Shown one piece after another: positions 26,605 through 55,088 of a stretch of 64,000 nucleotides of DNA. Within the stretch, counting starts at the first letter, position 1; the number at the start of each line of letters is the position of its first letter. The DNA comes from Alkalihalophilus pseudofirmus OF4 (GTDB lineage: Bacteria > Bacillota > Bacilli > Bacillales > Bacillaceae_D): contig NC_013791.2 of assembly GCF_000005825.2 (NCBI RefSeq), forward strand, positions 806,001-870,000. Direction: 5' to 3'. Below the pieces are notes generated by a model. That model searched no databases and had not been told where the DNA came from. It was given only the letters and a program-made list of their open reading frames with translations. Position numbers and translations under genes: made by a program.

Positions 26605-28260
26605 ATGGCGAGGTCACAAGTAAAGACAAAGCGTTCTTGGACGACTAAACGAGAGGCAAAGGCAAGAAGGCTTGAAAATATCAAAAAGATTACAACAAGT
26701 AAAGTGATACCAACAGAATCAATCGTAGAAGCTATGGAATTAGTCATACAGCCTCATGACCGAGTGGTGATGGAGGGGAATAACCAAAAGCAAGCCTCCT
26801 TTCTTTCAAAGTCACTCTCTCTTGTAAATCCTGATAAGCTGCATGATCTACATATGATCATGTCAAGTATCTCGAGGCCGGAGCATCTCGATATATTTGA
26901 AAAAGGAATTGCACATACGGTTGATTTCGCTTATGCCGGACCGCAAAGCTTACGTATTGCACAAATGATTGAGGATGGGCAGTTAAAGATGGGCGAAATC
27001 CATACGTATGTTGAGCTTTACGGAAGATTATTCATTGATTTAATTCCAAATGTTGCTTTAGTAGCGGCAGATAAAGCTGATGCAGATGGAAATTTATACA
27101 CAGGGGCAAACACAGAGGAAACCCCTACTCTTGTTGAAGCTGCTGCCTTCAAAGATGGAATTGTCATTGCTCAGGTTAATGAATTAACAGATGAATTACC
27201 ACGGGTAGATATTCCAGGGTCTTGGATTGATTTTGTTGTCGTGGCGGATAGTGCTTATCAACTTGAACCTCTTTTCACTAGAGACCCAAGACACATAACA
27301 GATATACAAGTATTAATGGCGATGTTGACGATCAGAGGTGTATATGAACGGCATCAAGTAGAATCATTGAATCATGGAATTGGCTACAATACTGCAGCTA
27401 TTGAATTATTACTGCCTACTTACGGAGAATCTTTAGGACTTAAGAATAAGATCTGTAAGTACTGGGCATTAAACCCGCATCCCACCCTTATTCCGGCTAT
27501 TGAAAGCGGCTGGGTTGAGAATGTCCATTCATTTGGCGGAGAAGTGGGGATGGAGCCTTATATCGCAGCAAGACCTGATGTCTTCTTTACAGGCAGTGAC
27601 GGAAGTATGCGCTCTAACCGAACCTTGTGCCAGCTAGCAGGACAATATTCCGTTGATTTATTCATTGGGTCTACTTTACAAATGGACCCAGACGGTAACT
27701 CATCCACTGTAACATCAGGTCGATTAGCTGGATTTGGCGGGGCACCTAATATGGGACATGATCCAGGTGGAAGAAGGCATTCAAGCCCTGCATGGTTAAA
27801 TATGATTGAATCAGATAATCCTCTAGCTCGAGGAAGGAAATTGGTTGTCCAAATGGTGGAAACTCATCAAGCAGCCAATAAACCTGTTTTCGTTGAATCA
27901 TTAGACGCGATTGATGTTGCAAAAGATGCTAGCCTTGCTACGACACCAGTGATGATTTACGGAGAAGACGTTACGCATGTTGTAACAGAAGAAGGAATTG
28001 CTTATTTATACAAAACAGACAGCATAGAAGAACGACGTCAGGCGATAGCGAGCGTAGCTGGAGTTACTCCGATTGGATTAGATCGTGACATGAAAACGTC
28101 TAGAAAGTTGAGGGAGCGAGGCATTATTGCTTTGCCTGAGGACTTAGAGATCAGAAGGTCTGATGCTAAACGTTCACTACTCGCAGCCAAAAACATTGAG
28201 GATTTAGTTGATTGGTCAGAAGGACTTTATACACCGCCTGCAAAATTTAGAAGCTGGTAA
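26605..28260 (+). CDS. mdcA: Malonate decarboxylase alpha subunit MdcA (CoA-transferase)
   Basis: The 551-residue protein is the acetyl-S-ACP:malonate ACP transferase subunit. Recognisable stretches include RVVMEGNNQKQASFLS near the start, SFGGEVGMEPYIAARPDVFF and GFGGAPNMGHDPGGRRHSS, with GEDVTHVVTEEGIAYL towards the end. It exchanges acetyl for malonyl on the carrier protein thioester. GAGGAGG precedes the ATG. A very basic N-terminus (KTKRSWTTKREAKARR) is present. Confidence 0.93.
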   Translation: MARSQVKTKRSWTTKREAKARRLENIKKITTSKVIPTESIVEAMELVIQPHDRVVMEGNNQKQASFLSKSLSLVNPDKLHDLHMIMSSISRPEHLDIFEKGIAHTVDFAYAGPQSLRIAQMIEDGQLKMGEIHTYVELYGRLFIDLIPNVALVAADKADADGNLYTGANTEETPTLVEAAAFKDGIVIAQVNELTDELPRVDIPGSWIDFVVVADSAYQLEPLFTRDPRHITDIQVLMAMLTIRGVYERHQVESLNHGIGYNTAAIELLLPTYGESLGLKNKICKYWALNPHPTLIPAIESGWVENVHSFGGEVGMEPYIAARPDVFFTGSDGSMRSNRTLCQLAGQYSVDLFIGSTLQMDPDGNSSTVTSGRLAGFGGAPNMGHDPGGRRHSSPAWLNMIESDNPLARGRKLVVQMVETHQAANKPVFVESLDAIDVAKDASLATTPVMIYGEDVTHVVTEEGIAYLYKTDSIEERRQAIASVAGVTPIGLDRDMKTSRKLRERGIIALPEDLEIRRSDAKRSLLAAKNIEDLVDWSEGLYTPPAKFRSW

Positions 28261-44110: not shown

Positions 44111-44266
44111 GTGTTTTGCCTAATTTTTTTAAATTATTACCTTGCCTATATAAGTAAGCTTCACTTCGCTTTCCTTTATTAGTAGATTAATGTTTGAAAT
44201 GAATCAGAAAGGACTAAAGACAATAAGAAAAACCATTTAGTAGACTTAGTAAAAGGAGGGATTCTT

Positions 44267-46927
44267 TTGAAAGAAAAATGTATTTATATCACTATCTTTT
44301 TAATGTTAGTGGTCTTTTTTTCATCCAGCACTCTAGCACAAACAACTGGTGAGCCTGCAGCTGATCTTGCCTTAGAAATGGTTGGTCCGAATAATCAAGG
44401 ATTTATTACCTCTGAATTTGTTCAATACATATATGCAGAGGCAAGAGGAATAGATTTACCTCGGTTAGCAAGGGAGCAGCGCCAAGTAGGAGAGGAAGTT
44501 GCCCGTGAAAGCCTGCAAGCAGGAGACATTCTTTTCTTTCAAGGAAGCTCATTAATGTCAGGAATTTATATAGGGGACGGCCGCTTTGTAGTGGTAACAA
44601 GTGGAGGAATCACAGAGATAAATCTTGATGCCAGTACTTATTGGTCAGGAATTTATGTCGGAGCTAACCGCTATTTCGAGGATGCTGTTCCCGTAGAGGA
44701 CCCTGCAGCTAGTCTTGCATTAGAAATGATTGGACCAAATGAACAAGGGTTTTTAACTTCCGAATTTGTTCAACATGTATATGCACAGAGTAAAGGCATA
44801 GATTTGCCACGTCTTGCAAGAGACCAACTCTTAACAGGGGCTGAAGTGGAAAAAGATAAACTAGAAGCAGGTGATGTTGTCTTTTTTCAAGGAAGTTCAT
44901 TAATGTCAGGGATCTATATCCAAAATGGTCAATTTGTTATTGTTACTAGTTCTGGAATTACGCAGGCTAATTTATATTCTAGTAGTTATTGGTCAGGAAT
45001 TTATGTTGGAGCCAATCGCTATACCGAGGGAAGCAGTATCGAAGATTCTTCAGCAAACTTAGCACTAGAAATGGTGGGTGAAAACCATCAAGGTTTCATT
45101 ACATCCGAATTCGTTCAATACATCTATAAAGAAACTAAAGGGTTAGAACTTCCTCGGGCAGCTAGTGATCAGTGGCTGCTAGGAGAGGAAGTAGCTTTAG
45201 AAGACTTGCTGCCGGGGGATGTTGTCTTTTTCCAAGGTGCATTTTTAATGTCAGGAATCTATATAGAAAATGGTCGTTTTGTCATTATAACTAGTGAGGG
45301 AATAACAGAACGGAATATGAACACGAGCGAGTACTGGTCCAATGCGTTCGTTGGAGCTAAGCACTATACGGATGAAAATCTTACTCCGCCTCCTACGTCA
45401 AATGAAATTGTCGAAAAAGCCCGTTCATTAATCGGGACTCCTTATAACAGAAGAGGGGATAATCCTGTAGATGGTTTTAATACAGGTTCTTTTGCTTATT
45501 ATGTGTACCGGGAAGTAACCGGAAGCTGGCTCTCAAAACTATCTTACGCGCAATTTGAAGCTGGTCTTGAAGTTGAACGCGATGAGCTTCAAGAAGGGGA
45601 TCTTGTGTTCTTTCAGAATAATGACGAGTGGCTGACCGGAATTTATTCAGGAGATGACCGGTTTATCATAGCTGCATCAGAAGGAGTGCAGGAACGTCAT
45701 TTAGACTTCCATACCTATTATTCAGATCGATATGTTGGAGCAGTAAGATATACAGACGCGATTCTCAATAAATCTAACCCAAATACGTATCTAAATCATA
45801 AAAATCCAGTCATCCAAGAGGCAATGAAATATATGGGAACACCTTATCTTATGACTGGAAGTACACTCGAAGCCTTTGATTGTTCTTTCTTGATTCAAAC
45901 GTCCTTTAGAGAAGGAAAAGGGATATACCTTCCAAGAATCAGTTATAGACAATGGGAAGTAGGAGAAACCATTCTGCCGGAAGGCACCAATATAGAAGAG
46001 ATCACACTTGATGATCATATCAGACCTGGGGATGCTCTTTATTTTTCAGGCACATGGCAAGAAGGTATTTCACATGTCGCCATTTATTTAGGAGATAACT
46101 ATATGATTCATGCAACTGGTGAAGAAGGAATGACAACAATCTCTTATATGAATTCATATTGGCGTGAACATTTCACAGGGGTTAAACGCTTTGATGATCT
46201 TTCAGTCCAACTAGATCATCCAGCGGTTTACGAGGCTTATCAAGTACTAGGAAGCCCTTATCAATTAGGTGGAGCTGATCCTGAGCAGGGATTTGATACA
46301 GGAGGGCTTACACAATATATTTACAAGCAGGCATATCAATATGATCTTCCACGCTACGGCAGCCAGCAATGGCAAGTTGGAATGGAGATACATCCTGATA
46401 ATGCTGAACCTGGAGATTTGTTATTCTTTGAAGGGACGACATTGATTCCTGCAATTTATTTAGGGAATAACCAAATGGTTGTGGCTACTCAAGCAAACGG
46501 GGTGATGATTGTTGACCTCACTGTAAGCTCCTATTGGCCGCCACGACTTTATGGAGCCAGAACGTATGAAATAGAAGATGTTACTCTTGAAGCCGTTGCT
46601 GTCCTAACAGAGAATTATGTGGGAGAAGTGTTTCATGGCTCTTCTGTTGAATTTGTACAAAACATGTACTTAGAAGCTGCCAATAAACAGTTATCAGGAA
46701 ATATTCATACGCTTCGTTCAGGCGGGGACTCCATTCATATTGAAGAATTAGAGCGAGGCGATGTGATGTTCTTCAGTGAAGAAACCGAAAGTAATACCCC
46801 AAGTTTTATTGGCATTTATTTAGGGGATGGTTCTTTTGCAACGTTAAGAGATCAAGTGGTAGAAAAGTATGAGATGAATGATGATATTTACTGGATTAAT
46901 CGATTATTGGAAGCAAGGAGATATTAA
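44267..46927 (+). CDS. Secreted seven-module NlpC/P60 protein with one intact active site
   Basis: The 886-residue protein has a signal peptide (about residues 1-25) and then seven NlpC/P60-like modules, about residues 31-139, 145-254, 261-369, 379-497, 513-645, 651-768 and 772-886. Only module 5 keeps the catalytic set, Cys539 in EAFDCSFLIQ, His603 in ISHVAIYLG and His615. The cysteine position is Thr in modules 1, 2, 3, 4 and 6 (residues 48, 164, 279, 406, 678) and Gly in module 7, and the first His is replaced by Met, Leu, Ile or Phe. Modules 1-3 are close copies. The active module would cut gamma-D-Glu-meso-Dap bonds in peptidoglycan; the others may bind wall. TTG start with AAAAGGAGGG upstream. 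Confidence 0.88.
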   Translation: MKEKCIYITIFLMLVVFFSSSTLAQTTGEPAADLALEMVGPNNQGFITSEFVQYIYAEARGIDLPRLAREQRQVGEEVARESLQAGDILFFQGSSLMSGIYIGDGRFVVVTSGGITEINLDASTYWSGIYVGANRYFEDAVPVEDPAASLALEMIGPNEQGFLTSEFVQHVYAQSKGIDLPRLARDQLLTGAEVEKDKLEAGDVVFFQGSSLMSGIYIQNGQFVIVTSSGITQANLYSSSYWSGIYVGANRYTEGSSIEDSSANLALEMVGENHQGFITSEFVQYIYKETKGLELPRAASDQWLLGEEVALEDLLPGDVVFFQGAFLMSGIYIENGRFVIITSEGITERNMNTSEYWSNAFVGAKHYTDENLTPPPTSNEIVEKARSLIGTPYNRRGDNPVDGFNTGSFAYYVYREVTGSWLSKLSYAQFEAGLEVERDELQEGDLVFFQNNDEWLTGIYSGDDRFIIAASEGVQERHLDFHTYYSDRYVGAVRYTDAILNKSNPNTYLNHKNPVIQEAMKYMGTPYLMTGSTLEAFDCSFLIQTSFREGKGIYLPRISYRQWEVGETILPEGTNIEEITLDDHIRPGDALYFSGTWQEGISHVAIYLGDNYMIHATGEEGMTTISYMNSYWREHFTGVKRFDDLSVQLDHPAVYEAYQVLGSPYQLGGADPEQGFDTGGLTQYIYKQAYQYDLPRYGSQQWQVGMEIHPDNAEPGDLLFFEGTTLIPAIYLGNNQMVVATQANGVMIVDLTVSSYWPPRLYGARTYEIEDVTLEAVAVLTENYVGEVFHGSSVEFVQNMYLEAANKQLSGNIHTLRSGGDSIHIEELERGDVMFFSEETESNTPSFIGIYLGDGSFATLRDQVVEKYEMNDDIYWINRLLEARRY

Positions 46928-48285: not shown

Positions 48286-49605
48286 ATGAGCCTGTTTTCG
48301 TTAATCAAATTTTTCAAAGAAAGTCAAAACGATTGGATGGAGCAAGTAGGTCAGCTGCAAGTGAAGGTAGATGTGGCCGATTCGACGATTCATGACAAAA
48401 TGAGAATGGTTCAATTGACAGAGCAAGATCTGCAAGTCATTAAAAGCATACAACCTTTAGTCATATCACATGTTAATGAGCTGGTTCGTGGTTTCTATGA
48501 TACGATCCTTCAAGTGCAGGTATTAAGAGAAAAAATTGAGCAGCATAGTTCGGTAGATCGACTTGAAAGAACGTTAGAGAAGCATCTAATTAACTTATTT
48601 GAAGGGAATATTAATGAACAGTTTGTGGAGAATAGAGTGAAAGTCGCAAAGGTTCATTACAAGATTGGTGTAGAGACTTCTTGGTATATGAGTGCCTTTC
48701 AAAACCTTCAACAAGCTATGTTTCTTGTTATTTGCCGGGAGTTTGATCAAGGGTCTAATAAAATTGATGAAATTAAGCAAGTCACAACTGCAGTTAATAA
48801 ATTATTTAGTTTAGAACAGCAAATTGTACTCGAAGCTTATGAAAATGAAACCGTTGCCAAAATGAAAGAACAATTTGAAGTTGGGAAAACAGAAATCCGT
48901 ACTAAAATTATGGAGATTAGTGAAGGATTAGTAGCTTTGGCCGAAGAAACTCAAGCTTCAGTAGAGATTTTAAGTTCTCACTTCAATGAAGTAAGCGGAA
49001 ATTCATTAGCAAGTAATGAGCAATCAATTATTGCTGAGAAAAAGGCAAATGACGGTCAAGGACAATTAAATGACATGCTTCATAAAATCCATTCAATTGA
49101 AGAGTATACCAATAATATGCAAAAAGCTATTAATCATCTTGGACAAGCAACAAGTGAAATTACTCATGTAATTACGATTGTAAAAGATATTGCTGAACAA
49201 ACAAATTTACTTGCGTTAAATTCAGCAATTGAAGCTGCCAGAGCAGGAGAGCATGGCCGTGGGTTTGCGGTGGTATCACAAGAAGTGAAAAAGCTTGCAG
49301 AACAAACGAAGAATTCAATCAGTCAAATTGATAAATTAATCGCTAATTCAGATCACTACAAACAAGAAGTGGCACAATCATTAAGCCAGGTTATTCAAGC
49401 TGTGAAGATGGGGCTTGAGGCATCGGGACAAACCGATGTGGTGTTTGGTCAAATGGTGGAATCCATTCAACAAAGCAGCCATACCGTTATGAAAGTAAAA
49501 AACCAAATGGACGAGCTTACTCGTGTCGTAAAAGAGATAGAGAAAGCTAGTATGAACGTAGCATTATCAGCCGAGCAATTAAATGAAGCGGTTGCGACTG
49601 CTTGA
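48286..49605 (+). CDS. hemAT: HemAT-like globin-coupled chemoreceptor
   Basis: The 439-residue soluble protein has an N-terminal sensor globin (about residues 30-200), with the proximal haem ligand His124 in [11 protein letters not shown] methyl-accepting signalling domain follows (about 215-439), with the highly conserved hairpin tip [20 protein letters not shown] and [18 protein letters not shown]. subtilis HemAT senses oxygen and controls aerotaxis through CheA. No transmembrane segment is present, as expected. AAAGGGG precedes the ATG, behind a possibly structured leader. Confidence 0.93.
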
Positions 49606-51700: not shown

Positions 51701-52768
51701 ATGAACATTCAACAAATAGATGTAACAGAGAAGGTTGTTTCTCTTAAGGAACCCTTCATAACGGCTCTTAGGACAGTGACTGAGGTAGAGGTGATTGAGG
51801 TGAAGATTACCCTGGATTCAGGGATTACAGGGGTGGGTTCGGCTGTTCCGACCTATGCCATTACCGGCGAATCAAAAGAGAGTATTATAGCTGCAATTGA
51901 ACATCCAATTACAGATGCTCTTTTACACACACCTGTTTACTCATTTCAAGAAATGATAAGGCTCGTTCAAAAGAGCTGCATTCAAAATTATAGTGCAAAA
52001 GCAGCCGTTGACATGGCACTGCATGACGCTTATTCGAAAAGCTTAGGAATCGATCTGCTCGAATTCTTTGGCGGAGGCTCCATTCCTTTGCAAAATGATA
52101 TGACAATTAGTCTTAGCTCAAAAGAAGAAATGAATCAGCAAATGCAGCGTCATACTAGAGCTGGTTTTACTCAGATGAAAGTAAAGCTTGGAACATCAGG
52201 AAAAGAGGACATTGCGCGGATTTTGTATTTAGCAGAGAACGCAAATGAGAACATTGAGTTTCGAATTGATGCAAATCAAGCTTGGTCACCAAAAGAAGCG
52301 ATCACACTCATTCACGTTCTTGAAGCAAATCAAGTTCCCGTTCAATTTATAGAACAGCCTGTAGCAGCAGATGATTTAGAAGGGTTAAAGTACGTGAGGG
52401 AGCACGTACATCTGCCTATTATGGCAGATGAAAGCTGTAGAACTCTAAAGGATGCTCATCACATTATTAAGATGGGTGCTGCTGATATGTTGAATATAAA
52501 GTTGATGAAATGTGGGGGGCTGAATGAAGCAAGAGCCATTGCAGACCTCGCGCAAACAGTAAGAATGCCTTGTATGGTCGGCAGCATGATGGAATCACAT
52601 CTATCTGTTGCACCGATCGCCGCTTTGGCCAGCGCACATCCGAATATTACCATGGTGGACTTAGATGCACCACTTTGGTTAGAAGATGAGGAAGCAAAAA
52701 GCAATCTCTTCTATGAAGACGGGGTTGTTTCTTGGCGCAAGTCAACAGAGGCAAGGCTTTCAATATAA
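51701..52768 (+). CDS. ykfB: L-Ala-D/L-Glu epimerase (YkfB)
   Basis: The 355-residue enolase-superfamily protein has MKVKLGTSGKEDIARI with the KxK catalytic lysine pair, and the metal ligands in RIDANQAW, QFIEQPV and IMADESC. A lysine in NIKLMKCGGL and the C-terminal VDLDAPLWL follow. This is the pattern of the Ala-Glu dipeptide epimerase. It recycles murein peptides by making L-Ala-L-Glu from L-Ala-D-Glu. The adjacent ykfC gene 26 bp downstream supplies the substrate, so the pair forms the ykfBC unit known in B. subtilis. AAGGAG precedes the ATG. Confidence 0.9.
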   Translation: MNIQQIDVTEKVVSLKEPFITALRTVTEVEVIEVKITLDSGITGVGSAVPTYAITGESKESIIAAIEHPITDALLHTPVYSFQEMIRLVQKSCIQNYSAKAAVDMALHDAYSKSLGIDLLEFFGGGSIPLQNDMTISLSSKEEMNQQMQRHTRAGFTQMKVKLGTSGKEDIARILYLAENANENIEFRIDANQAWSPKEAITLIHVLEANQVPVQFIEQPVAADDLEGLKYVREHVHLPIMADESCRTLKDAHHIIKMGAADMLNIKLMKCGGLNEARAIADLAQTVRMPCMVGSMMESHLSVAPIAALASAHPNITMVDLDAPLWLEDEEAKSNLFYEDGVVSWRKSTEARLSI

Positions 52769-52793
52769 ATTCAAAACAGGAGGAGAATGTCTA

Positions 52794-53798
52794 ATGAAAA
52801 AATGGTTGCTTATGCTGTTGATGGTAAGTATGGCTGGAATGATCCTAACACCGGCCGGCCTAGCAAAAGAGGTAGGAAAAGGAGATATTGCCTTTGTTGA
52901 TGTATCTGTGTTGACGGTGTGGGCTGAGCCGAATTTGGACCGGCCGATTGATGCACCTGCTGTATCGAATCCAGTTGATCACTGGAAGTGGACTACTGAC
53001 ATGACCTATGAGGAAAAGCTATGGCTAGTCGGAAAGCTAGAAACACAAGCTCTATACGGAATGAAAGTTAATGTGTTAGAAGAAGCGGGTGACTGGGTTA
53101 AGATTTCAGTAGAAGGCCAGCCTACGCCTCGTGAAGAATCAGGTTATCCAGGCTGGGTTCCTAAAGTTCAGTTAACAAATAATGAACGGCTAGAAGATTT
53201 ATCTAACCGTCCGTTTGCGACAGTCACTGTGCCGACTGCTTCTTTATACGAAGATCGTGCTTTATCAAAAGAATTTATGGAAGTGAGTTTCAATACAAGA
53301 TTGCCGGTTATGGCCGAGCAGGGAAATAAAGTACTTGTTGCGACACCAGCTGATGGAAACAAGTGGTTCGACCTAGCAGATATTGAAATATATGAATCAG
53401 AGCAAGATATACCAAAACCAACAGCTGATGATTTACTAGCTACTGGTGAATTGTTTTTAGATTTACCATACTTATGGGCTGGTGTATCAGGCTTTGGATT
53501 TGATTGTTCAGGATTTACACACACGATTTATAAGGCTCATGGAATAACGATCCCTCGTGATTCAAGCATACAAGCTCAGCATGGTACATTTGTTGAAAGA
53601 GAAGATTTGCAAAAAGGAGACCTTGTATTCTTTGCCCGTAACAATGGCACAGGAGCCGTTCACCATGTCGGAATGTATATTGGTGAAGGGAAAATGATTC
53701 ACTCACCCAATACAGCCAGCACCGTAGAAATTGTGGTGATTGATGAATCGAGTTATGCATCAAGCTATCACAGCGGACGTCGTTATTTAGAAAATTAA
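52794..53798 (+). CDS. ykfC: Gamma-D-glutamyl-L-amino acid endopeptidase (YkfC, NlpC/P60)
   Basis: About 334 residues. There is a signal peptide (MKKWLLMLLMVSMAGMIL..), two SH3-type segments (VDVSVLTVWAEP and FATVTVPTASLYED regions) and a C-terminal NlpC/P60 domain. The catalytic residues are Cys238 in GFDCSGFTHTIY, His291 in HHVGMYIG and His303 in MIHSPN. It cleaves L-Ala-gamma-D-Glu-Dap peptides between D-Glu and Dap, releasing L-Ala-D-Glu for YkfB. AGGAGGAG precedes the ATG. Unlike its six-fold degenerate relative at 44.3 kb, all three catalytic residues are present. Confidence 0.92.
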   Translation: MKKWLLMLLMVSMAGMILTPAGLAKEVGKGDIAFVDVSVLTVWAEPNLDRPIDAPAVSNPVDHWKWTTDMTYEEKLWLVGKLETQALYGMKVNVLEEAGDWVKISVEGQPTPREESGYPGWVPKVQLTNNERLEDLSNRPFATVTVPTASLYEDRALSKEFMEVSFNTRLPVMAEQGNKVLVATPADGNKWFDLADIEIYESEQDIPKPTADDLLATGELFLDLPYLWAGVSGFGFDCSGFTHTIYKAHGITIPRDSSIQAQHGTFVEREDLQKGDLVFFARNNGTGAVHHVGMYIGEGKMIHSPNTASTVEIVVIDESSYASSYHSGRRYLEN

Positions 53799-53913: not shown

Positions 53914-55053
53914 TTATTGTTGAATAGCAGCCATTGACTGCACCAAACCATTTCCGAACTGATTTGAGCCGCCTAGTGGAAGGGCAGTATCATTTAAGAG
54001 ATTACGAAGCTCAACATTAGATAAATGGGGCTTCGCTTGCCATACCTGTGCAGCGACACCAGCTACATGTGGAGAGGCCATAGATGTTCCATTAAATGAA
54101 GCATAGTTATTATTAGGAGTTGTACTTAAAATACCGGCACCAGGAGCTGAAATCTCAACAGCTGGTCCTGTACTAGAGAACGTTGCACGTTGATTGTTTT
54201 GGTCTGTTGCAGCAACAGCGATGACAGATTCATATTTAGCAGGGTAGCCAACTGTGTCGTTATTACCGCCGCGATTGCCGCTATTCCCAGCAGCAGCGAC
54301 AACTAGTAATCCTTCGGCGTAGGCAAGGTCACTGAACTCTTTTAAAATAGCAGAGCTTTGAGAACCACCTAGACTCATATTAATAATATCCATTCCATTA
54401 TTAATGGACCACTCAATTCCTTCTGCAATCCCTGCATAGGAGCCGCTTCCAGCATTATTTAGTACTTTGACAGCATAAAGATCTGCTTCACTTGCTACTC
54501 CAACGACACCAATGTCGTTATTAACGGCAGCTACGGTACCTGCAACATGTGTTCCATGGCCGTCACCATCAAAAAATGGATCGCGGTTTGCTGAATCTGT
54601 AAATACAGAGTGACCACCTTGTACATTCGCTGTAAGATCTGGATGGCTGCGGTCAATTCCTGTATCAAGAATAGCTACTTTTACACCATTGCCAGTGTAT
54701 CCAGCATTTTGTGCGTCAGTTCCTTGAACACGAGGAATACCCCAAGGTACGTTTTGTGCAAGCTTCGTTACCTCTGCATTTTCCTCAACAAATTTAATAT
54801 GGGGGTGGTTTTTTAGACCGCGAGCTTTATTTTCAGGTAGTTCTACTTGAACGACCGGGAGCAGATTAAATTCATGGATAATATCTTCTTCCTCCACTCC
54901 AAACGCCTTCAACAATCCTTTTTGAGACGGGCCGTCAAATGAAACTAAATACTCTTTCGTTTCGTTTTGAGCAAAATTATTTTGAGCGAAAGCTGCTTGT
55001 CCTGGTAATAGCATTGTGAACACTAATAGAAGCGCCAATAAAAGATGTCTCAT
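53914..55053 (-). CDS. Secreted subtilisin-like alkaline serine protease
   Basis: About 379 residues. It has a signal peptide (MRHLLLALLL...QAAFA, about residues 1-23), an I9 propeptide (about 24-98) and a mature S8 protease starting AQNVPWGIPRVQ near residue 99. The triad is Asp130 (ILDTGIDRSHPD), His166 (GHGTHVAG) and Ser324 (NGTSMASPH), with oxyanion Asn257 (AAAGNSG). The mature start and length are like AprE and the high-alkaline subtilisins, with a one-residue insert near the active Asp. It is secreted to degrade protein. GGAGGA suits the second ATG (55053), not the one at 55059. Confidence 0.95.
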   Translation of the reverse strand: MRHLLLALLLVFTMLLPGQAAFAQNNFAQNETKEYLVSFDGPSQKGLLKAFGVEEEDIIHEFNLLPVVQVELPENKARGLKNHPHIKFVEENAEVTKLAQNVPWGIPRVQGTDAQNAGYTGNGVKVAILDTGIDRSHPDLTANVQGGHSVFTDSANRDPFFDGDGHGTHVAGTVAAVNNDIGVVGVASEADLYAVKVLNNAGSGSYAGIAEGIEWSINNGMDIINMSLGGSQSSAILKEFSDLAYAEGLLVVAAAGNSGNRGGNNDTVGYPAKYESVIAVAATDQNNQRATFSSTGPAVEISAPGAGILSTTPNNNYASFNGTSMASPHVAGVAAQVWQAKPHLSNVELRNLLNDTALPLGGSNQFGNGLVQSMAAIQQ

Positions 55054-55088
55054 TTTCATCTTCCTCCAATTATTTATTTAGTTGTAAG

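Follow-up and report, generated by a model that had tools for sequence, protein, structure and literature searches.

What do six NlpC/P60 modules without catalytic residues do in a protein that has a single module with them? The question was raised by a gene in a 64,000-nucleotide stretch of Alkalihalophilus pseudofirmus OF4 DNA, which we refer to as the window; coordinates given without a locus label are positions in this stretch.

Gene and module layout

The gene encodes an 886-aa protein, and Pfam matched PF00877 to seven stretches of it with a whole-protein E value of 5.7e-111, which is far beyond chance. Three other Pfam candidates (cNMP_binding, CHAP, and TrkA_C) scored under the cut-offs and were rejected. 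The start codon is TTG and is preceded by a strong ribosome-binding site. Judging from a hydrophobic N terminus read by eye, the protein is probably secreted. The features are as follows.

44254..44260, + strand: ribosome-binding site AGGAGGG, read by eye, 6 nt upstream of the TTG start
44267..46927, + strand: whole gene, seven NlpC/P60 modules, 886 aa (open reading frame and Pfam)
44267..44341, + strand: putative secretion signal, aa 1-25 (hydrophobic N terminus, by eye)
44342..44686, + strand: module 1, noncatalytic; Thr48; Met and Val replace the His pair; short loop (alignment, model, and fold match)
44687..45034, + strand: module 2, noncatalytic; Thr164; Met and Ile replace the His pair (alignment to module 5)
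45035..45379, + strand: module 3, noncatalytic; Thr279; Met and Ile replace the His pair (alignment to module 5)
45380..45763, + strand: module 4, noncatalytic; Thr406; Leu and Ile replace the His pair; position of PgdS domain 1
45764..46201, + strand: module 5, catalytic; Cys539-His603-His615; position of PgdS domain 2
45881-45883, + strand: Cys539 codon of module 5
46202..46570, + strand: module 6, noncatalytic; Thr678; Ile and Val replace the His pair; position of PgdS domain 3
46571..46924, + strand: module 7, divergent, noncatalytic; Gly791 or Ser; Phe and Thr replace the His pair

Several other genes in the window were noted. An enolase-like epimerase gene followed by a gene for a YkfC-like NlpC/P60 protein (51701-53798) is separate from the seven-module finding, and the pair presumably functions in murein peptide recycling. 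A subtilase-family protease gene is located at 53914-55059, a gene for a malonate decarboxylase alpha subunit is at 26605-28260, and a protoglobin fused to a chemotaxis signaling domain, a likely oxygen sensor, is encoded at 48286-49605.

Catalytic residues of the seven modules

The nucleophile, His, and third residue of each module were read by alignment to module 5. The Cys-His-polar triad was present in module 5 alone and was missing from the other six modules. Thus, the original prediction of seven modules with a single catalytic set in module 5 was confirmed by Pfam and by alignment. The alignment also bore out the predicted Thr at the nucleophile position of modules 1-4 and 6, and it agreed with the proposal that the first catalytic His is replaced by Met (modules 1-3), Leu (module 4), Ile (module 6), or Phe (module 7). 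In the case of module 7, the predicted Gly at the nucleophile position held when the alignment was anchored on the preceding Phe (Gly791) and gave way to Ser when it was anchored on the following helix; the residue was never Cys. None of the 10 window-type chains examined carried Cys at the Thr positions, that is, outside their one catalytic module.

We considered Thr as an alternative nucleophile and did not retain this idea, given that the modules in question have also lost both of their His residues. In addition, modules 1-3 are about 8 residues shorter before the Thr, and the pocket Tyr (PgdS number 181) is lost with these residues.

The core of the protein corresponds to PgdS

PgdS of B. 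subtilis hydrolyzes poly-gamma-glutamate (gamma-PGA). It has a signal peptide and comprises three NlpC/P60 domains, of which the available text of PMC5880399 describes domain 2 as the only active one, with the triad Cys194-His247-Gln259. Domains 1 and 3 have Pro and Thr, respectively, where Cys is expected (PMC5880399; cf. PMC3573020). According to the same portion of PMC5880399, earlier work had assigned no function to the two dead domains. What is proposed there is a route for the substrate that runs between domain 2 and domain 3, and point mutants back this proposal, in that K242A, R284A, and K359A substitutions at the domain 2/3 junction led to poorer gamma-PGA degradation (PMC5880399).

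The dead-active-dead order of PgdS is found in modules 4-5-6 of the window protein, and four further noncatalytic modules flank it. On alignment, the layout of PgdS is therefore that of modules 4-5-6, and modules 1-3 and 7 are additions. The architecture had been proposed to be previously undescribed; this could not be upheld for the core, as the dead-active-dead arrangement is already described for B. subtilis PgdS in the available text of PMC5880399. In the limited open-access literature that was covered, we found no report of NlpC/P60 arrays of more than three modules. What is new here is the expanded arrays of 4 to 10 modules with one Cys, together with the S-layer domains that lead the chain in two close relatives, and the window protein is an expanded PgdS-type enzyme.

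Kinship with PgdS was further examined with L050, a 413-aa protein from our sample of the order. L050 has 12 of 12 tested PgdS residues at the published numbers, and about 4 kb separate its gene from pgsB. In domain 1 of L050, Ser takes the place of the Pro given in the PgdS paper; a relative, L063, has Pro at this position. When L050 was used as a query on the A. pseudofirmus OF4 genome, the window gene (modules 5-6) was the top match (E value of 1.9e-65), a paralogue was nearly equal (4.2e-62), and the next NlpC protein was far below (1.5e-30). When the window core was used as a query on the L050 genome, the best match was L050, with 47% identity over modules 5-6. Hence, the window gene and L050 are reciprocal best hits over these two modules.

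At the PgdS domain 3 position, Thr was found more often than any other residue, in 33 of 41 proteins. Two features of PgdS were not found in the window protein. The Cys-His-Gln triad is replaced by Cys539-His603-His615, and His as the third catalytic residue is also seen in three-module relatives near pgsB, such as L051, L068, and L075. Furthermore, PgdS residues K223, K242, R284, and K359 correspond to Thr568, Gln598, Lys640, and Glu714 in the window protein, and only Lys640 is basic.

One catalytic module per chain in arrays of 2 to 10 modules

Module counts across the family ranged from 2 to 10, and the single catalytic module was retained across nearly all multi-module chains examined. Specifically, exactly one Cys module was present in 60 of 61 multi-module proteins (217 modules), and 43 of 44 proteins followed this rule after near copies were removed. 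The 61 proteins were scored from 68 distinct open reading frames, seven of which were dropped for having fewer than two scorable modules, and the sole exception was one piece of a broken gene in genome G013. All 25 class-sample proteins (21 of one genus; 2 repeats) and all 10 window-type chains (9 loci; 4 repeats) also had a single Cys. The class sample consisted of the proteins of loci L105-L129 and excluded three matching genomes without a locus (G752, G768, and G665). Because the genome-search query included the catalytic module and no genome of the large samples had more than 4 first-look candidates scored, chains without any Cys would be under-found in these counts.

A noncatalytic module directly followed the catalytic module in 41 of 43 proteins (near copies removed). 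The class-sample chains were mostly of the dead-active type, with nothing C-terminal to the active module. Among noncatalytic modules located ahead of the catalytic module and its neighbor, 14 of 27 keep both His residues and lack only the Cys. This applied to nearly all such modules in the chains of 8 and 10 modules, one of which has Lys, and all three catalytic residues are lost in the window-type noncatalytic modules.

The longest chains were L065 (10 modules, 1310 aa) and L064 (8 modules, 1044 aa). Both arrays come after pgsB, pgsC, pgsA, and a gamma-glutamyltransferase gene on the same strand; pgsB was identified by search, the transferase was assigned at L131, and the other neighbors were assigned by open reading frame likeness. 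The distribution of the family was patchy. In the window's own family, 6 of 41 genomes had a match (E ≤ 1e-30); in the family to which the 10-module genome belongs, 2 of 15 had one, and both were already known. A contig scan of genomes yielded one distinct locus.

Origin of the extra modules

A tree of 101 modules, built on few columns and with many of its forks open, had a branch (support of 74) that set all catalytic modules apart on one side. The leading modules of the window-type chains formed one set (9 rows, support of 97), and a separate set (14 rows, support of 91) held the additional modules found in the chains of 8 and 10 modules. These two separate sets indicate that arrays grew at least twice.

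Modules 1-3 had been described as near copies that arose by recent duplication. Their identities were only 59-67% at the protein level and 62-70% at the DNA level, so they are not near copies, and other families of the order also carry modules that belong to their set in the tree. Given this modest identity and wide occurrence, the duplication is not recent. Modules of the 1-3 type are kept across several genera. A second tree disfavors the catalytic module as the source of modules 1-3 (p-AU of 0.027). Grouping them with all domain-3 modules (p-AU of 0.137) or with all domain-1 modules (0.117) was not rejected. In the best reduced tree, modules 1-3 joined module 4 of the window type together with its paralogue (14 rows, support of 96), and a direct match list gave a value of 48% to PgdS domain 3.

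Fold and selection of the noncatalytic modules

A structural model of module 1 was built from the seven modules of the window protein and the seven modules of L046, an Alkalihalophilus marmarensis protein that is 95% identical to it. The mean pLDDT was 94.8, and the pTM was 0.88. Foldseek returned 62 PDB matches at E ≤ 0.001, and the best was 7v6s_A, a MepS-type structure (E value of 6.4e-11, TM of 0.85). MepS-type peptidases headed the matches; among the best 50 of 62, LytE was at rank 28 and the noncatalytic RipD (4jxb) was at rank 34. In the model, Thr48 opens the helix 23-35, and active NlpC/P60 members bear the nucleophile at the first residue of that helix. The prediction that the inactive modules retain the fold was supported by the model and Foldseek for module 1 and by the Pfam profile for the other noncatalytic modules. 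A two-module model of modules 5 and 6, which was meant for the interface, was weak (pLDDT of 70, pTM of 0.54).

The comparison with A. marmarensis, which involves few changes, yielded a dN/dS of 0.21 when the six noncatalytic modules were pooled; that of module 5 was 0.39. Values for individual noncatalytic modules, which likewise rest on few changes, ranged from 0.09 (module 4) to 0.48 (module 7), with 0.40 for module 6. This supports purifying selection on the noncatalytic modules, within the limits of so few changes.

Association with pgs genes

The order sample comprised 397 genomes, with the core detected in 46 (E ≤ 1e-25) and pgsB in 70 (E ≤ 1e-100). We found pgsB in 45 of 46 genomes with the core and in 25 of 351 without it (Fisher 5e-40, not corrected for kinship). 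The single core genome lacking pgsB was G408, in which there was only a short hit. In an author-picked set that overlaps the order sample (40 of its 46 core genomes plus 4 from the search of the window's own family), pgsB was present in 44 of 44 core genomes. The order-sample genomes left out of this set were G082, G201, G226, G314, G408, and G409, and all of them except G408 have pgsB. Twenty of 57 hand-listed arrays were located within 12 kb of pgsB; this list excludes the arrays of the same six genomes and a short G090 fragment.

In the A. pseudofirmus OF4 genome, pgsB, a pgsC-like gene, pgsA, and a gamma-glutamyltransferase gene are all on one strand. The paralogue, a 485-aa copy of the core, is located on the opposite strand between pgsA and the transferase gene (L133 4369-5826), and the window gene is 2.75 Mb from pgsB. 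Of the nine window-type orthologue loci, six had no pgsB within the fetched flanks, and pgsB was present at L152, L153, and L154. The orthologues at these three loci have module 7. Those at L153 and L154 are on the pgsB strand, 0.5-0.6 kb upstream of the gene. The L152 orthologue is about 6 kb from pgsB on the other strand, and there was no pgsA hit in that stretch. At L130, a broken window-type copy ends a same-strand run of pgsB, pgsC, pgsA, a gamma-glutamyltransferase gene, a gene for a gamma-glutamyltransferase/glycosyltransferase fusion, and a LytR/CpsA/Psr gene.

Several side observations were made at these loci. The orthologue at L084 4119-5254 (also L130), in a genome of the same family, is split into open reading frames of 118 and 260 aa. 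The fusion of a gamma-glutamyltransferase and a family 2 glycosyltransferase is encoded in the pgs cluster at L130 6678-9674 (Pfam) and at L153 53-3070, and the two proteins are 62% identical over 996 aa. A gene for a LytR/CpsA/Psr ligase is next after the L130 fusion gene, and the fusion could join polyglutamate to wall glycan. The 10- and 8-module arrays are each followed by a gene (L131 3255-3986 and L132 3320-3982, respectively); the L131 product matches N-formylglutamate amidohydrolase (PF05013) and is possibly another gamma-glutamyl hydrolase. Finally, pgsB is in three pieces beside a three-module array at G036:C16 11977-13123, which reflects either a decaying cluster or sequence errors.

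Leading parts and charge

SLH domains are surface anchors. Pfam identified them at the front of L153 and of the second L154 protein (which is without module 7), where six-module orthologues carry noncatalytic modules. In the relatives L094 and L047, which consist of an active and a dead module, SLH domains were also found at the front (Pfam). Two-module relatives with long N-terminal parts were noted at L093 12050-13741, L094 226-1917, and L047 2790-4463. The swap of SLH domains with noncatalytic modules at the front of the chain indicates that the leading part is exchangeable and favors binding or placement; it suggests that the leading part may serve in attachment.

The mature window protein has a net charge of -70 and a pI of 4.4, versus a charge of +13 for L050. 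The 10-module chain of a pgs cluster has a charge of -71, yet it keeps K242, R284, and K359. Given the charge of -70 and the loss of basic residues at three of the four junction positions, an electrostatic grip on a polyanion is doubtful for the window protein. The noncatalytic modules may recognize the gamma-glutamyl backbone in a groove, hold the polymer through cation bridges, or target another surface polymer.

Function of the noncatalytic modules

Our best explanation, to which we assign a probability of roughly 0.6, is that the gene encodes a secreted PgdS-type endopeptidase acting on gamma-PGA, in which one module cuts and the other six serve in binding or positioning. Secretion, the substrate in A. 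pseudofirmus OF4, and the ligand of the noncatalytic modules are what we infer from kinship and gene context. The products of the organism's own PgsBCA genes would make the gamma-PGA substrate, and module 5 would cut it via Cys539-His603-His615. Module 6 would be the invariant partner of module 5, a role that domain 3 has in PgdS. Having lost catalysis, modules 1-4 and 7 would serve to bind or place the polymer or the cell surface, which would let the one cutter work on a chain gripped at several points. The original prediction had been that the inactive modules may form a multivalent peptidoglycan-binding array or an inhibitor around one cutter. The binding array stands as the best reading; peptidoglycan as its target was not supported, since the genome association and the gene neighborhood point to gamma-PGA instead.

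A cell wall (peptidoglycan) endopeptidase whose noncatalytic modules bind murein as RipD does is the strongest of the alternatives, although we consider it unlikely. It draws on the similarity of the module 1 fold to murein enzymes and RipD described above, on the ability of RipD to bind murein without a catalytic triad (available text of PMC12067865), and on the action of DL-endopeptidases on both the wall and gamma-PGA, as worded in a title in the reference list of PMC11075323. Murein as the sole target was rejected as the main reading on two grounds, namely, the association with pgsB and the pgs cluster and the reciprocal best hit with L050, which was far above other NlpC proteins.

We give less weight still to a mainly regulatory role, in which the noncatalytic modules would cover or steer the module 5 active site and limit activity. 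There is a precedent in PgdS, whose domain 1 shifts relative to domains 2-3 with pH, such that intramolecular control is possible (available text of PMC5880399). However, a specific lid is hard to fit to chains that range from 2 to 10 modules around a single cutter, and SLH domains can occupy the leading end. It is very improbable that the extra modules are decaying duplicates without function, a reading that was already disfavored. The loss of all three catalytic residues and the pocket loop in modules 1-3 would fit decay, but the dN/dS of the noncatalytic modules (two species, few changes), the maintenance of modules of the 1-3 type in several genera, and the confident module 1 model argue against it.

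Returning to the gamma-PGA endopeptidase with a binding array, what is of interest is the one-cutter rule over very different chain lengths, together with the exchange of leading modules and SLH domains. We tentatively suggest that dead NlpC/P60 modules might be a general polymer grip, with lineages varying the number of modules and keeping one cutter. The number and spacing of dead modules might then set movement along gamma-PGA or product length, and SLH stand-ins might make a surface tether or ruler. Should the dead modules prove to grip gamma-PGA, they would represent a new kind of noncatalytic binding module that would be useful for polymer size control, and enzymes would have turned into binding arrays repeatedly. 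The natural one-cutter arrays of 2 to 10 modules and their SLH-led versions are material for probing the function of the dead PgdS domains.

Comparison with known systems

The YkfC-type peptidase encoded in the window (52686-53798) has NlpC/P60 in common with the seven-module protein and differs in having one such domain plus SH3 domains. The closest known system is PgdS/YwtD. Both proteins have tandem NlpC/P60 modules in which a dead module, a catalytic module, and a Thr-bearing dead module follow one another, and relatives of the window gene are associated with pgs genes. In contrast, PgdS has three modules and Gln as the third catalytic residue, whereas the window protein has seven modules and His, and the basic substrate route is mostly lost in the window protein. 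The pgdS gene adjoins pgsBCA in B. subtilis, whereas the window copy is apart from pgsBCA, at the distance from pgsB given above.

RipD of Mycobacterium also has an NlpC/P60 fold without catalytic residues that is kept for binding, as we infer for the window protein; unlike the window protein, RipD has a single dead domain, binds murein, and has no attached cutter. RflaF_05439 of Ruminococcus flavefaciens likewise has a duplicated NlpC/P60 domain, but it has two copies and a cellulosomal dockerin, and its peptidase activity is called unproven in the available text of PMC3573020.
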